A DNA stretch of 64,000 bases from Nereocystis luetkeana (lineage: Eukaryota > Sar > Phaeophyceae > Laminariales > Laminariaceae), in NCBI GenBank assembly GCA_031213475.1, contig JARUPZ010000010.1, forward strand, positions 3,127,970-3,191,969, given 5' to 3'. Both the position numbers and the translations under genes were made by a program. A model generated the notes under the pieces. The model was not told where the DNA came from, made no database searches, and worked only from the letters and a program-made list of their open reading frames with translations. Shown piece after piece: positions 19,494 through 63,249 of this stretch. Numbering within the stretch: the stretch's first letter is position 1; each line of letters opens with the position of its first letter.

Positions 19494-19934
19494 GTACGAG
19501 CGCTAGTTAGTGCTGTACGACGAGCACGTTATGGCGTGTCCTTTTTGCGGACGTTCTGTATGTATGTGCCGCCGCTTGTATGTGTGTATGCGCGACGGAC
19601 GATCAATCGACGTTCTTTGTTGCTTCACTTCTTCCCGAAAGCGCTGCCCGCCTCGCAAGATCCATTCAAAACCACATCGCCGGGAGCGAAAAGCAGCAGC
19701 AGGATATCCCGTTGCCTTCTCGACTCAAACACCTACGCCGAGTCGAAATCTCATAAAACTATACCTGGTACATAATCTTCGATTAACAGCAGATCGATTT
19801 ATAGAACGCACCATACAACAAGTCAAGTCGGGCCGACGTCGTCCAGACCCCATCATCAACTCGACAGTAGCAGCACACGTTCAGCCGCAGGCCCCCCAAA
19901 ACTCCCCGTCACTACCCGTACGATGAATAACTCT

Positions 19935-20031
19935 GAACCCTTTTAGAGCCGCAGTCCCGTTTTGGAGACAAAACAGTCAAGTTTCAAAGTAGTTTGTCCC
20001 CATAACGGGACTGCGGTTCTAAAGGGGTTAA
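19935..20031. mobile_element. MITE B
   Basis: AACCCTTTTAGAGCCGCAG to TGCGGTTCTAAAGGGGTTAA; in an intron of the minus-strand gene. Confidence 0.9.
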
Positions 20032-20245
20032 AATACAACTTGCCTTCTACCTTCACGCAGGCATTTCAGGAAGCAGAACCAGTACGGCCAGATCGCGAAG
20101 AGCCAACACAAAACTTGATCCCGTAACATGTGCAACACTGCTGGATTTTGCTGTGAAACACGCAGAACAGAATAACGACTGCGGCGAACGACGCACTGCT
20201 GTAAATGCGACGTAACATCTTGTCGTGCATGTGAGGCACAACAAC

Positions 20246-20352
20246 CTTCCGTTCCAGTCCTTCAAGTTCGTCATGAGACACTCCCGGTACTGCTCCAAGG
20301 GCTCTCGGCAGCCCCTCAAGAACATCCCGGGGTCGACGAGGTCCGGATCCAT
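20246..20352 (-). CDS. first coding exon of a long-intron gene, function unknown
   Basis: The exon starts at ATG 20352 and reads MDPDLVDPGMFLRGCREPLE and onward to a DWNGR end, then splices at a GT donor (GGAAG then GTTGTT). An in-frame TAG lies 12 nt before the ATG, which supports this as the start rather than an internal Met. Codons are strongly G/C-ending, unlike the other frames. It ends with two extra bases, which fit the single leading base of the exon at 19259-19178. The family is not recognised. A CX9C spacing (GCREPLEQYREC) is present, but only one is seen, so I do not call a CHCH domain. Splice sites are inferred by eye. Confidence 0.5.
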
Positions 20353-20364
20353 ATCGGCGCAGCG

Positions 20365-20900
20365 CTATCGCTGGCGCGGGGCGATCCAGAAGGACCCCTG
20401 GGAACTTGAGAGCGGCGGGCACCGGTGCAGTGGCTTACGTAACTTCTTCTACCTGTGGCGTGGCGCGTGGCGTACGTATGGGATCTCGGGTTCCTCCGCT
20501 TTTTGTAACTGTAGGCCCAATCCCCTAGAAAAAAATATTTACAGGTATTCTCCTTGAAACCTCTTTGCTCGCGCTTTTAATTTTGTGTTGTTTGCTGGTT
20601 CAGCTTCTGCTGCTGCTACTGCTGCGGCTGCTATCCTGCTGCTGCGCTTGCCGTCGCGTTCCCACTCCCGCACCGCTCGCTCCGTCCCGCGGCCAGGTCG
20701 TTCCTTGGGCGATATTCTATGATTGTGTAGAGTTCTCGGCCGTGCTGGATACCACCGCGTGCTCGAGACTCGAGAGGAGACAGCAGGCGCACAGGGAGGG
20801 AGGAGCGAAAAAAAGGAGGAGAAATAAATACGCTGGAGAGGTCAAAGCTTCTTATTATTTCGCATATAACTGTGATTTGGGGGGTTCGCGAGGAGCTGAT
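20365..20900. promoter_or_regulatory. divergent intergenic region
   Basis: This is the space between the minus-strand start (ATG 20352) and the plus-strand start (ATG 20901). It holds a CTG-rich run (20588-20650) and a GAGGAG-rich stretch near 20800-20820. I see no convincing TATA box. A shared promoter is inferred only from the head-to-head layout. Confidence 0.3.
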
Positions 20901-21008
20901 ATGAAGATTGATGGAGTATCCGCGGAGCCTTCCCAGGGGGACAACCCCTTCGCCATGGGACCGGTGGCCCTGGACATCGACTGCGACCTGGACGTGCTCG
21001 CGCACAAG
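20901..21008 (+). CDS. first coding exon of a divergent gene, function unknown
   Basis: The ATG opens a 36-codon frame, MKIDGVSAEPSQGDNPFAMG then PVALDIDCDLDVLAHK, ending in phase 0 at donor GTAGGA after CACAAG. Third positions are mostly G/C. The frame is also open upstream, so the exon may begin earlier. The protein start is acidic and contains SQGDNPF, a loop-like sequence. The family is not recognised. Confidence 0.45.
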
Positions 21009-21184
21009 GTAGGAACGGGAGGGAGTAAGACGTTGGGGATCTGGGTTGGCGTGGAGAGAAGTCGGTCTTACGTGTACGAGTACTTTAAAACGTCTTATAT
21101 GTCATCACAAAAAATCATACTGATAAATTGTTTGCACGAGTTTTTTTGAGCGATTTTTTGTATGTGGATGCTCTTGTGCGCGAT

Positions 21185-21265
21185 CTGCTGCTGCTGCTGC
21201 TGCTGCTGCTGCTGGCGCTGCTGCTTGCTGCTTGCTGCTTGCTGCTGCTGCTGCTGCTGCTGCTA
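21185..21265. repeat. GCT/CTGCTTG repeat
   Basis: CTG triplets interrupted by TTGCTGCTTGCTGCTTGCTG units. Confidence 0.9.
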
Positions 21266-21742
21266 CTTGTGTGGTCGCCTGAACCGCTCAGGGCAATGGG
21301 CGTAACTACTACTGCTGTATGCTGTATCACACCTGTCAGGTTATTTTCGGTCACTGCTCCAGTGTTCGGCCAAGCCGCCCGTCGCCGACCGTCTCGTCTC
21401 AGGCAGCAAGCTTTTCTTTACTTGAATATGGTGTGGCTTCTAAGAAATTGTGTGGAATGTGATGTATTAGTATTTGTTTCCTGCACGAGTACGAGTACAT
21501 ACATACGTGAAGGACAGTTTTGGTTTTCATATCGTACAACGATGAATGAAAAACAACAGCAGTCCTTTTTATCGTGATATTCGGGAGAGTCGTACTCGGA
21601 CGAGTACATATTTTCGGTATCAATATTCATAGTACGTACGTACGTATCATGAATTCGTCAGGGGACTCTTCCTCGTATACTCCGATACGAGTATAAACAC
21701 GCATGTACATACTGACTGCTGTATGTGTATATCCTGGATGAG

Positions 21743-21834
21743 GCCCCTATAAAATCCGCGATACGCGCGATCGAAGCATCACGCACAGCTTGCAAGCAAG
21801 GAGATGAGTTCGACGACATCCTCGATCTCACAGC
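21743..21834 (+). CDS. possible second exon of the divergent gene
   Basis: The reading APIKSAIRAIEASRTACKQG then DEFDDILDLTA is an acidic amphipathic stretch after GATGAG. TACTGAC about 34 bases upstream looks like a branch site. The start is phase 0, as required by the exon at 20901-21008. The donor is unclear (GTGTGT at 21835). The minus strand is also open here with similar codon use, so the strand is not certain. Confidence 0.28.
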
Positions 21835-61118: not shown

Positions 61119-61678
61119 CACTTTCGACGGCCGCCATGGTATCGGGGGGGGGGGGGGATGATATTATGGGAATTAGTATCTATGCACCGGCATATACCCG
61201 TTGGGCGGGGCAGAAACTCGGATAATCTCGGGTTGTGGACCCCCGCGGGTAAACGCGCATATGCTATCGGCCCGTGTCCTCGGTATAGGTATCGATATGA
61301 TATGTGTCAGATTTCTGACACTATACACCGATATTGTGCTGTTGCATACATGGTACTTGGTAATACTTTCGCTCTCTCTTGGAGACATTTTGAGGGGGGG
61401 GGGGGGAAAGCTGGCGGTGAAATAATAGCGACTGCAGCGGTGTCCGATTTCCGATTGGTTGAAAGGAAGCACATATACGTAGAACAACGGGCGCTGAAGG
61501 ATCCTACCGGTAGTAGCCGGCTTGACGGCTTTGACGAATGCCCCAAGTTTTATCATTGGTTTGGCTGCTACTGTATCTCTGGCTCCGAAGGAGGTTAATC
61601 AGAGCTACCGACTACCAGGCACGGTACCAGGTATGTAGAATGCCCAGGGTAATGTTATCTTGACCCCAGTGTTCCTTG

Positions 61679-61925
61679 TCAGGATCCATCTTAACGAGGG
61701 CTGTGTTGTTTGTTTTTTTTAGGTATTTTCCCGAAATTTCGGTATATCTCGGTTTTTTCCTATAGGAAAATTCCGAAATATCGGGAAAATACGGGAAAAA
61801 ACTGAAAAAAAACTCCTCGTTAACCCCTTTGGAACCGCAGTCCCGTTTGGGGACAACCCACTCTAACTTCAAGTAGTTTGCCCCCAAACGGGACTGCGGT
61901 TCTATAGGGGTTAAGATCGACCCTT
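61679..61925. mobile_element. family C hairpin split by MITE B
   Basis: AGGATCCATCTTAACGAGGG left; right AGATCGACCCTTAC. A MITE B occupies the TTAA of the right arm's CTCGTTAAGATC. Confidence 0.9.
61820..61914. mobile_element. MITE B nested in family C, with clean TTAA duplication
   Basis: CTCGTTAA precedes CCCCTTTGGAACCGCAG, and TTCTATAGGGG is followed by TTAAGATCG. Removing the element plus one TTAA restores the C arm exactly. Confidence 0.95.
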
Positions 61926-62087
61926 ACTACTGCCGTTGGGTGTGGGGCTTTAGAAAAGGGACTCTGGTTTTGGAATTTGTGGCCCCGCGATAGTGCCGGC
62001 ATACGTTACATTATGATATTACACCAACCGATAATACCGACACTACCTTGTCTTCTCTGTAGCGGCAATAATCGGCACAAAAACCAT

Positions 62088-62290
62088 AGTAAAAACCAAG
62101 GTAGGACCTACAGTAGTATGTGCAGTAGCAACACAAAAACCTACCAGGTATGTATTTCGCTATTTTTATTATTGCGGATGACCACAGCAGTAAACAGAAC
62201 CGAATATTGTGAGTAAAAATAGGTGAGCATATAGGTTTTTGTGTATAACATACAGCCAGTAGGTCCTATTTACTATGGTCCCCCGCAATA
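62088..62290. mobile_element. two overlapping MITE A copies
   Basis: The first begins near ACCATAGTAAAAACCAAGG and ends after CTATTTTTATTATTGCGGAT; the second runs from GCGGATGACCACAGCAGTAA to TGGTCCCCCGCAATA. CCAGGTA lies at 62144-62150. Confidence 0.72.
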
Positions 62291-62394
62291 ACAATATTTG
62301 GTCCTGTTTACTCTGGTCCTCCGCACTACATTAGTGCTGCATGATGGGTACGCCGTCCGCACACTGCTGTTCACACTATTTACTAGTAACATCA

Positions 62395-62562
62395 GTGTGT
62401 TATCTTCACATTAAACCGTTTCTTTTTTTTTCTTTTACCCTTCGACGTCCAGCACGACCAAGTGTCCGTGCCGATTCTTCAGTCCGGGAGAGATACCAGT
62501 ACAAGCTCTGCGGTCACAAAACTACGCCACAGATATATGCTACGTTTTTACGCGTGCAGTAA
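62395..62562 (-). repeat. family H repeat
   Basis: TTCACATTAAACCGTTTC, then CCTTCGACGTCCAGCACGAC, then TCTGCGGTCACAAAACTACG. Confidence 0.72.
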
Positions 62563-62628
62563 GCAGCACACAATCCCATCCGTGCCCAGCGATTCTCCGG
62601 GTACTACGAGTTGTTGTTGTTGTTGTTG

Positions 62629-62736
62629 TATCACGGGGGAGCGGAGTACATAGGACCAAATATTGGTATTAAAAAAATATGTGAGCATATAGGTTTTTGG
62701 GTGTACCGTAGCTATTTACTATGGTTCCCCGTAATA
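62629..62736. mobile_element. MITE A, arm-type A1
   Basis: TCACGGGGGAGCGGAGTACA left; TTTACTATGGTTCCCCGTAA right; the right end touches family C. Confidence 0.85.
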
Positions 62737-62889
62737 AGGGTCGATCTCAACGAAGAGTGTTTTTCAGTTTTTTTTTCCAGTATTTTCCCGAAATTTCGGT
62801 AATTTCCCATAGGAAAAAACCAAGTAATATCGAAATTTCGAGAAAATACCGAAAAAAACTAAAAAACGGCCCTCGTTAAGATCGACCCT
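62737..62889. mobile_element. family C hairpin
   Basis: AGGGTCGATCTCAACGAAGA left; CTCGTTAAGATCGACCCT right; stem blocks CCCGAAATTTCGG and CGAAATTTCGAG. Confidence 0.88.
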
Positions 62890-63249
62890 AACGGGCAACC
62901 GGAGCTACTTAACCTGCACTATAGAGGGACCACTACTTCTGCATATTATTAATAGTACGATGGAGCGGATTTTGCGCATTTCGTTGCGTATTATTCGAAT
63001 TCCCCAAAAAATCAAATTTCCGCTTTTTATCGCAAACCTGCGTATGTACCTGGGTATGTACTGCTGTTTGTACAAGTATAGTAGAGTGTATCAGGTACCT
63101 GGTATGCAGTTTTCGTATTTTTGGTATCTTTCTATTGTGGAGTGTTCAAGCGCTACGCATTGTTCTAAAAAGAAAGGAAAAAAAAGAAGTTGTAGGACAC
63201 GGCACGACATGCTCTGAGCATTTCATGCTGGTGTAATGTTGTTATTTAA

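Follow-up and report, generated by a model that had tools for sequence, protein, structure and literature searches.

Probable excision scars of a TA-targeting element, TACC(A/T)GGTA, in the genome of the brown alga Nereocystis luetkeana

The stretch described here, 64,000 nucleotides of Nereocystis luetkeana (assembly GCA_031213475.1, contig JARUPZ010000010.1, positions 3,127,970 to 3,191,969; hereafter the window), is populated by a nine-base unit, TACC(A/T)GGTA, which probably marks places where a transposable element once inserted at a TA and left again. The window holds 47 exact matches, all within 19762-63104, whereas 0.52 would be expected; 100 shuffles of the window yielded at most three matches, and none reached 47. 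A first-pass annotation, made from the letters alone, had put the number at about 46 against about 0.5 by chance, and the count bears this out. The matches form 39 single units and four tandem doubles (21868, 29513, 32525 and 57383). With regard to the central base, 20 have A and 27 have T, as strand symmetry predicts for one sequence lying in two orientations. Because TACCAGGTA and TACCTGGTA are mutual reverse complements, the A/T centre does not count as separate evidence, and the earlier argument that it reflects a central mismatch between paired overhangs carries no weight of its own. The motif is sharp and not a fuzzy composition effect, since the 28 one-mismatch 9-mers present in the window occur only one to four times each.

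Abundance and distribution of the unit

Genome-wide counts were made on the 465-Mb assembly, whose contigs reach at least 21.9 Mb, with the same pattern read backwards as control. Among named database entries, an exon of the sampled stretch L026 comes closest to the brown algae Scytosiphon (74%), Hapterophycus (74% over 75% of the query) and Ectocarpus (72%), and entries lacking a name reach 89-100%; by this evidence the host is a brown alga and probably lies outside Ectocarpales. TACC(A/T)GGTA was found 182,395 times, compared with 1,744 times for the reversed pattern and about 4,500 expected from a Markov model scaled up from the sample; composition thus does not refute the proposal of the first-pass annotation that the unit was inserted many times over. 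These numbers correspond to about one scar per 2.5 kb and about 1.3 Mb of added DNA (182,395 x 7).

A sample of 264 kb, consisting of the window and 20 blocks of 10 kb (21 stretches), contained 105 exact units, with at least one unit in 20 of the 21 stretches. The density was 0.73 per kb in the window, 58 units in 200 kb in the 20 blocks and 0.39 per kb as the genome mean. The first 19,761 bases of the window contain no unit despite holding 27% of its TAs, which would have a probability of about 1e-6 if all TAs were equivalent. Comparisons of paralogues, inverted repeats and source elements covered 276 kb. Four loci picked for carrying doubles (L011-L014) were excluded from the sample counts of units and variants, the target preference of both scar types described below, the unlike-context filter, the Markov word excess and expectations and the decay estimate; they were included in the paralogue comparisons of both scar types, the inverted-repeat search, the scans for indels and long gaps, and the initial look at half-sites. 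Overlapping or same-scoring copies (L044, L053, L054) were excluded from the Markov word excess and expectations, the long-gap scan and the decay estimate.

Excision scars at TA are a known kind of feature; what is new here is their length, uniformity and number. Within open-licence PubMed Central, a whole-word match to TACCAGGTA or TACCTGGTA was found in no paper, and nothing matched these scars by title or by the start of the abstract.

Single units known from their exact match lie on the minus strand (that is, with CCAGG on that strand, reading TACCTGGTA) at 19762..19770, 26118..26126, 29044..29052, 31902..31910, 34301..34309, 34468..34476, 35321..35329, 38914..38922, 40469..40477, 43343..43351, 47228..47236, 47588..47596, 47817..47825, 48394..48402, 52289..52297, 52723..52731, 56117..56125 and 63096..63104, and on the plus strand at 29382..29390, 29725..29733, 31517..31525, 37136..37144, 37612..37620, 46842..46850, 56915..56923, 59878..59886 and 61625..61633. 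Exact tandem doubles of the same standing are 21868..21883 (CCAGG then CCTGG, no single strand) and, with CCTGG twice and on the minus strand, 29513..29528 and 32525..32540.

Insertion at TA, target preference and decay

The 276 kb comprise 107 clusters of units, which were compared with their paralogues after removal of the unit from the query, at most five copies being shown per cluster. An aligned paralogue crossed the site in 20 of the 107 clusters, and nine of these 20 were clean 7-bp insertions: L017:9130, L019:2623 and seven clusters in the window, with CCAGGTA cleanly added after TA, so that the TA target is duplicated. Empty paralogues in the window cases are 8157, 8079, 34575, 60277 and L030 (84-92%) for the minus-strand unit at 34907..34915; 60510, 54714, 18475, L024 and L031 (92-95%) for 54935..54943, also on the minus strand; and, for units on the plus strand, several at 79-84% for 37535..37543, 60609 (minus strand) and L031 for 44874..44882, 57072, 57504, L015, L025 and L030 (85-88%) for 58947..58955, and 60547 (97% over 30 columns) for 62142..62150. 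The double of CCAGG at 57383..57398 (plus strand) is matched by empty paralogues 18479 and 44930 (80-83%), which differ by two units. Separate gaps occur near three of the clean sites, of 1 bp at 57383 and 58947 and of 5 bp at 44874.

Seven comparisons of filled and empty sites had been named in the first-pass annotation, whose positions mostly begin at the inserted bases, 2 bp past the start of the 9-mer. A clean unit difference at TA was recovered for six of them (54935, 57383 with two units, 58947, 62142, 34907 and 44874); at the seventh, 26205, a gap touches the site in the best paralogues. The insertions are single, clean and in unlike contexts, so the check for microsatellite slippage named with the original idea does not refute it.

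A motif-blind, all-against-all scan for clean insertions of 4-16 bp returned 339 places, of which 61 can be written as TA-X-TA. The commonest X was CCAGG (10 rows, some places being counted twice, and including the unit at 58947), followed by a 10-bp word of one repeat family (6 rows), CCAG (4 rows), CCTCG and CCATGG (3 rows each), TTAA (2) and CCAGGG (1).

Among the 91 single units of the 264-kb sample, a pyrimidine adjoins the TA in 0.80 of the 182 half-sites, versus 0.62 at all TAs, and another TA lies 7 bp away in 46 of the 182 half-sites versus 13.8 expected. Before pooling, the two sides of the scar were alike (doubles included). The target preference around TA is symmetric and transposase-like. 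Since a scar supplies its own TA at 7 bp, this preference may help to explain why doubles account for seven of the sample's 98 clusters. Genome-wide, tandem doubles number 15,917 compared with 2 in the reversed control, and TACCAGG followed by 3-12 bases and CCTGGTA occurs 2,544 times compared with 15; triples and mixed neighbours are among the places listed.

Decayed forms accompany the exact ones. In 327 kb, exact units numbered 116 and forms with one mismatch 146, versus 70 expected for the latter, with an excess at every position. About 46 of the 76 surplus forms are transitions, and changes of that kind within the TAs account for four of the larger excesses; transversions in the core occur as well. 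If the entire excess were decay, the mean divergence would be about 7.5% per site, which is an upper bound. On this basis the scars are probably spread over a long period and are not under strict constraint.

Proposed mechanism, source element and alternatives

We consider it likely that the units are excision scars of a cut-and-paste element that targets TA, has ends reading 5'-CCAGG and is cut with a stagger of 5 nt. Each unit would record one insertion and one excision of a DNA transposon that takes TA as its target and duplicates it on insertion. The transposase would cut one strand at the tip of the element and the other 5 nt inside, and both donor flanks would retain TA with the 3' overhang CCAGG. 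Four of the five positions in the overhangs would form base pairs, the central A facing another A; fill-in and ligation would then yield TA-CCAGG-TA in either orientation, a net gain of 7 bp. Tandem doubles and triples would arise when an element entered the TA of an existing scar and left again. Given a long time, an element that kept moving at low copy without amplification could leave some 180,000 scars and few copies of itself; the source would either persist in low copy, have died out or be absent from the assembly.

The polarity of the supposed ends can be read from variant junctions. Where two ends reading 5'-CCAGG are joined, trimmed joins would include CCA+TGG and not CCT+AGG. The CCA+TGG junction, TACCATGGTA, occurs 3,002 times genome-wide compared with 623 in the control (Markov model 617), whereas its mirror, CCT+AGG (TACCTAGGTA), shows no excess (175 versus 182; Markov model 202); a clean CCATGG insertion was also met near L030:5449 in the motif-blind scan. 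The CCA+TGG variant is what CCAGG ends, but not CCTGG ends, would give. Further variants in the 264-kb sample, for which there are sample counts only, are the CCAGGG type (9 versus 0.8 expected) and the CCTGGG type (4 versus 0.8).

The nearest known products are those of Tc1/mariner elements, and the scar of Sleeping Beauty is TAC(A/T)GTA. The Sleeping Beauty scheme, given a 5-nt stagger and CCAGG ends, produces exactly TACC(A/T)GGTA. Scars of this group (Sleeping Beauty, Mos1, Tc1) resemble the unit in the duplicated TA, a palindromic target preference and identity with the 3' overhang, and also in an odd-length overhang with an A/T centre that fits pairing with one mismatch. According to published accounts, the Sleeping Beauty scar and the 3' overhang produced by its staggered cuts have the same sequence (PMC7827188), cleavage by Tc1/mariner enzymes falls 2-3 nt within the element (PMC2170065) and Tc1/mariner scars measure 2-4 bp (PMC7913693). 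Unlike these, the scar here is 5 bp long, is present in 182,395 copies with no source in view, and comes with no match to PF13358 or PF01359. Grass Stowaway elements (miniature inverted-repeat transposable elements) and Osmar5 likewise leave a TA duplication with remnants of the terminal inverted repeats (1-4 bp), and re-insertion into the TA of an earlier scar has been recorded for them (PMC1925063). Their scars vary at single loci, whereas one nearly uniform scar is found throughout this genome.

The first-pass annotation had suggested that the unit is the footprint of a Tc1/mariner-type element, with a new micro-insertion process as the alternative. Excision as such agrees with the clean insertions at TA, the stacking, the target preference, the transition-rich decay and one variant junction fitting CCAGG ends. 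Membership in Tc1/mariner, on the other hand, is unsupported, PF13358 and PF01359 having given no match and 5 bp falling outside the published 2-4 bp, and neither a source element nor the CCAG+CTGG junction lends the reading support.

Several observations weigh against excision as we have outlined it. The length of 5 bp lies beyond the published Tc1/mariner range. The CCAG+CTGG junction, allowed by the same logic as CCA+TGG, has no excess genome-wide (38 versus 39). Eleven of the 20 comparable clusters were untidy. Gaps fall at the site itself in L023:117, L023:4713 and window 26205..26213 (minus strand); L024:5266 lies inside a repeat array, as do the plus-strand units 48609..48617, at the edge of a tandem array, and 48693..48701, within it; 48251..48259 (plus) lies in a TA-rich tract where the comparison is uninformative; and alignments are only approximate for 23565..23573 (minus; two 78% paralogues without the unit) and 55605..55613 (plus; paralogues without the unit at 78-82%), both with gaps nearby. 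The two remaining clusters, L018:9733 and L023:9046, have one unit in common that was copied, although they were counted as two; a third copy, L024, lacks it and has gaps nearby.

The search for a source bears on the same side. The remark in the first-pass annotation that no autonomous source was seen holds on the wider material as well: within 276 kb no inverted-repeat element of the form TACCNGG...CCNGGTA was found other than two nested pairs in L020, and among 549 long paralogue gaps, of which many are array artefacts, not one had CCWGG at both ends. A profile search of the genome with PF13358 gave no matches while its control was positive in three genomes; the search with PF01359 also gave none, and is uninformative because its control was silent too. 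Introns or divergence could hide a transposase gene from both profiles. Of the two TA-type transposase groups searched, the pogo/Tigger-like DDE_1 group (PF03184) was the one with matches (28 in the genome). Twenty of these loci were read for ends over about 1.5 kb on each side; TA-flanked inverted repeats are present in four (L043 and its overlapping neighbour L044, L045, L048) and none has CCAGG. The readable ends are of the CAGTACCGGCC type, with one GCACCGGGG, and such ends do not yield CCAGG. L051 has arms CAGTACCGGCCCGCTAG and L042 a similar 14-nt pair, whereas 14 of the 20 loci have no visible ends within about 1.5 kb. For a fish pogo element, the reported remainder after excision is 0-4 bp (PMC9976928). 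DDE_Tnp_4 (PIF/Harbinger-like, PF13359) has 57 matches in the genome, and L055, the sole copy read, contains no TACCNGG in 4.5 kb apart from one scar.

Pogo-like and DDE_Tnp_4 elements are not supported as the source: among the 20 of 28 pogo-like loci and the one DDE_Tnp_4 copy that were read, ends mismatch where they are visible, and most copies show none. A family with a long inverted repeat carrying TACCTGGGGTATG was rejected because the motif is internal: in L020 the inverted repeat extends beyond the TA at either end, and L014, L015, L019 and L030 also resemble one another in their outer flanks. The CCAG+CTGG junction, present once in the 264-kb sample, was withdrawn as support because its genome count equals the control.

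Three repeat families were noted in the course of this search. The one just mentioned (L020:9151-9647, with L014, L015, L019 and L030) has a long inverted repeat with an internal TACCTGGGGTATGTACGTACG. In a pogo-like DDE_1 family (L045, L048 and L051, with the similar 14-nt pair of L042) the inverted repeats start with CAGTACCGGCCCGCTAG or near it. Seven DDE_Tnp_4 copies (C10:1013897, which is L055, C12, two in C13, C19, C31 and C1678) have identical scores and an open frame of 294 aa, which suggests recent movement.

Among the alternatives, direct micro-insertion of a fixed 7-mer, CCAGGTA, at TA by an enzyme-templated or repair-linked process with no larger element fares best, and is nevertheless unlikely. 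It would account for the lack of a source in 276 kb and among the 549 gaps, for the failure of the CCAG+CTGG junction that excision predicts and for the very uniform product (105 exact units in 264 kb versus nine of the CCAGGG type and four of the CCATGG type). A symmetric target preference with TA duplication is, however, what a transposase dimer is expected to produce, and the excess of CCATGG without one of CCTAGG implies two joined ends with polarity; moreover, we know of no enzyme that inserts such a fixed 7-mer directly.

It is still less probable that the units are true scars most of whose 180,000 copies were carried by repeat amplification and are not independent excisions. The unit common to L018 and L023, the two in tandem arrays (48609 and 48693) and the 41 of 105 units that fail the unlike-flank filter are all of the kind that amplification would give. 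The other 64 of the 105 lie in mutually unlike 12-bp flanks under a filter so strict that it also discards chance likeness, and, leaving aside L018:9733 and L023:9046, the remaining 18 of the 20 comparable clusters have the unit in none of the copies shown, with the qualification that a unit-free query favours such copies.

Programmed elimination has a precedent in Paramecium, whose internal eliminated sequences (IESs) are TA-bounded, transposon-derived and very numerous, and thus resemble the units; their excision normally restores a single TA and leaves no scar, unlike what is seen here. No sign of elimination was met in the one assembly examined, no literature search being aimed at elimination in brown algae. 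If germ-line elements bounded by TA were imprecisely removed in the sequenced tissue, the missing source would be explained, and tens of thousands of intervening sequences are reported to be removed from the Paramecium somatic genome (PMC8354472). The one-mismatch forms suggest old scars, however, and together with the unit common to L018 and L023 they indicate that the scars were not all made afresh in one tissue; we regard this explanation as very improbable.

A functional site under selection, such as one for protein binding, would suit the sharpness of the motif and is more doubtful again: the unit is an insertion relative to its paralogues, it is stacked in tandem, it shows an excess of one-mismatch forms at every position, and the first 19.8 kb of the window have none. 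Composition, slippage or assembly artefact can be dismissed almost entirely, for common as microsatellites are in the window, the reversed controls reach only 1,744 (units) and 2 (doubles), and the insertions are clean, single and in unlike contexts.

Work on excision scars normally deals with a few of them at marked loci; in this genome they can be counted throughout. If excision by a CCAGG-ended element is the correct reading, past jumps may be preserved as a fossil record, although the jumping gene was not found, and this record would supply a clock and map of transposition independent of surviving elements. One genome would then suffice to measure how targets are chosen, how faithful repair is and how often sites are re-used; the ends and cleavage stagger of a transposase not yet described would be predicted, and repeat annotation built on surviving copies could overlook a major mobile element.

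A probable second scar type and other repeats

A screen for words enriched in unlike contexts brought up a second sequence, CTATTAATA, of the form TA-TTAA-TA. It has 62 matches in the 264 kb (0.6 expected), 49 of them in unlike contexts, and 92,674 genome-wide compared with 3,256 for the reversed control; palindromic sites are counted on both strands in the sample as well as genome-wide, so that the number of places is lower than 92,674. Aligned paralogues were available for 14 of 67 queries, with some sites appearing twice and several filled on both sides or untidy. A 6-bp insertion of TTAATA at TA is seen in L014:2615 versus L016, at window 27609..27617 (plus strand) versus L017 and window 24506, and at 25003..25011 (minus) versus L020 (74%). 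The target is asymmetric, with C before TA in 0.89 of 57 sites (oriented on that base), and the bound on decay, 12.7%, is higher than the 7.5% or so of the first scar. By the same logic, a second TA element with ends 5'-TTAA and a 4-nt overhang TTAA would account for this scar.

The window contains 21 places of this type, from 12142 to 62955. At 38380..38388 (plus), next to an 11-bp repeat array, paralogue 45779 lacks the 6 bp (75%), and at 36982..36990 (plus) paralogues exist and are untidy. The following are sequence matches: on the plus strand 12142..12150, 16744..16752, 18980..18988, 22003..22011, 23114..23122, 24473..24481, 28102..28110, 28298..28306, 36968..36976, 37467..37475, 38100..38108, 45351..45359, 49537..49545 and 55357..55365, and on the minus strand 22817..22825, 23524..23532 and 62947..62955. 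Those at 28102 and 28298 are the two copies in a perfect 196-bp tandem duplication (window 28101-28492), each copy of which holds one scar of the second type.

Taken with the first, the second scar raises the thought, which we offer tentatively and hold to be somewhat less probable than its opposite, that two or more lineages of TA-specific transposase live, or once lived, in brown algae. Their staggers would be 5 nt and 4 nt and their ends CCAGG and TTAA, and one of them would fall beyond the published Tc1/mariner cleavage range. Having moved conservatively at low copy for a very long time, such elements would now be nearly missing from the genome, in which almost all of their excisions (about 180,000 and tens of thousands) would still be recorded.

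Two other words, TACAGCAGTA and TACGAGTA, exceed the Markov model in 323 kb (25 and 49 unlike contexts versus 1.6 and 13.7). They are not claimed as scars, and both are missing from the 61 TA-bounded insertions; the excess of TACAGCAGTA is confounded by CTG/CAG microsatellites. Both are possibly further scars or microsatellite effects.

Database searches of the window were negative within their scope: Rfam gave no match at the gathering threshold, Pfam none on 10 open reading frames, and window 14001-22000 none against phages. Nine viral contigs carrying the double motif had only two or three units per locus, the double included, which is attributed to chance. One viral contig has an 18-mer in common with a window repeat, but no scar.

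Among other repeats in the window, a 359-bp tandem repeat at 23654-24353 and 26715 contains the word GGTTCGAGCCCC, which we take to be a tRNA-like B box; the repeat is possibly a tRNA-derived short interspersed nuclear element. Arrays of an 11-bp unit are found at 12320, 38245, 45730 and 60841, the unit being ACAGATCATCT and, at 60841, ACAGATCATAT.

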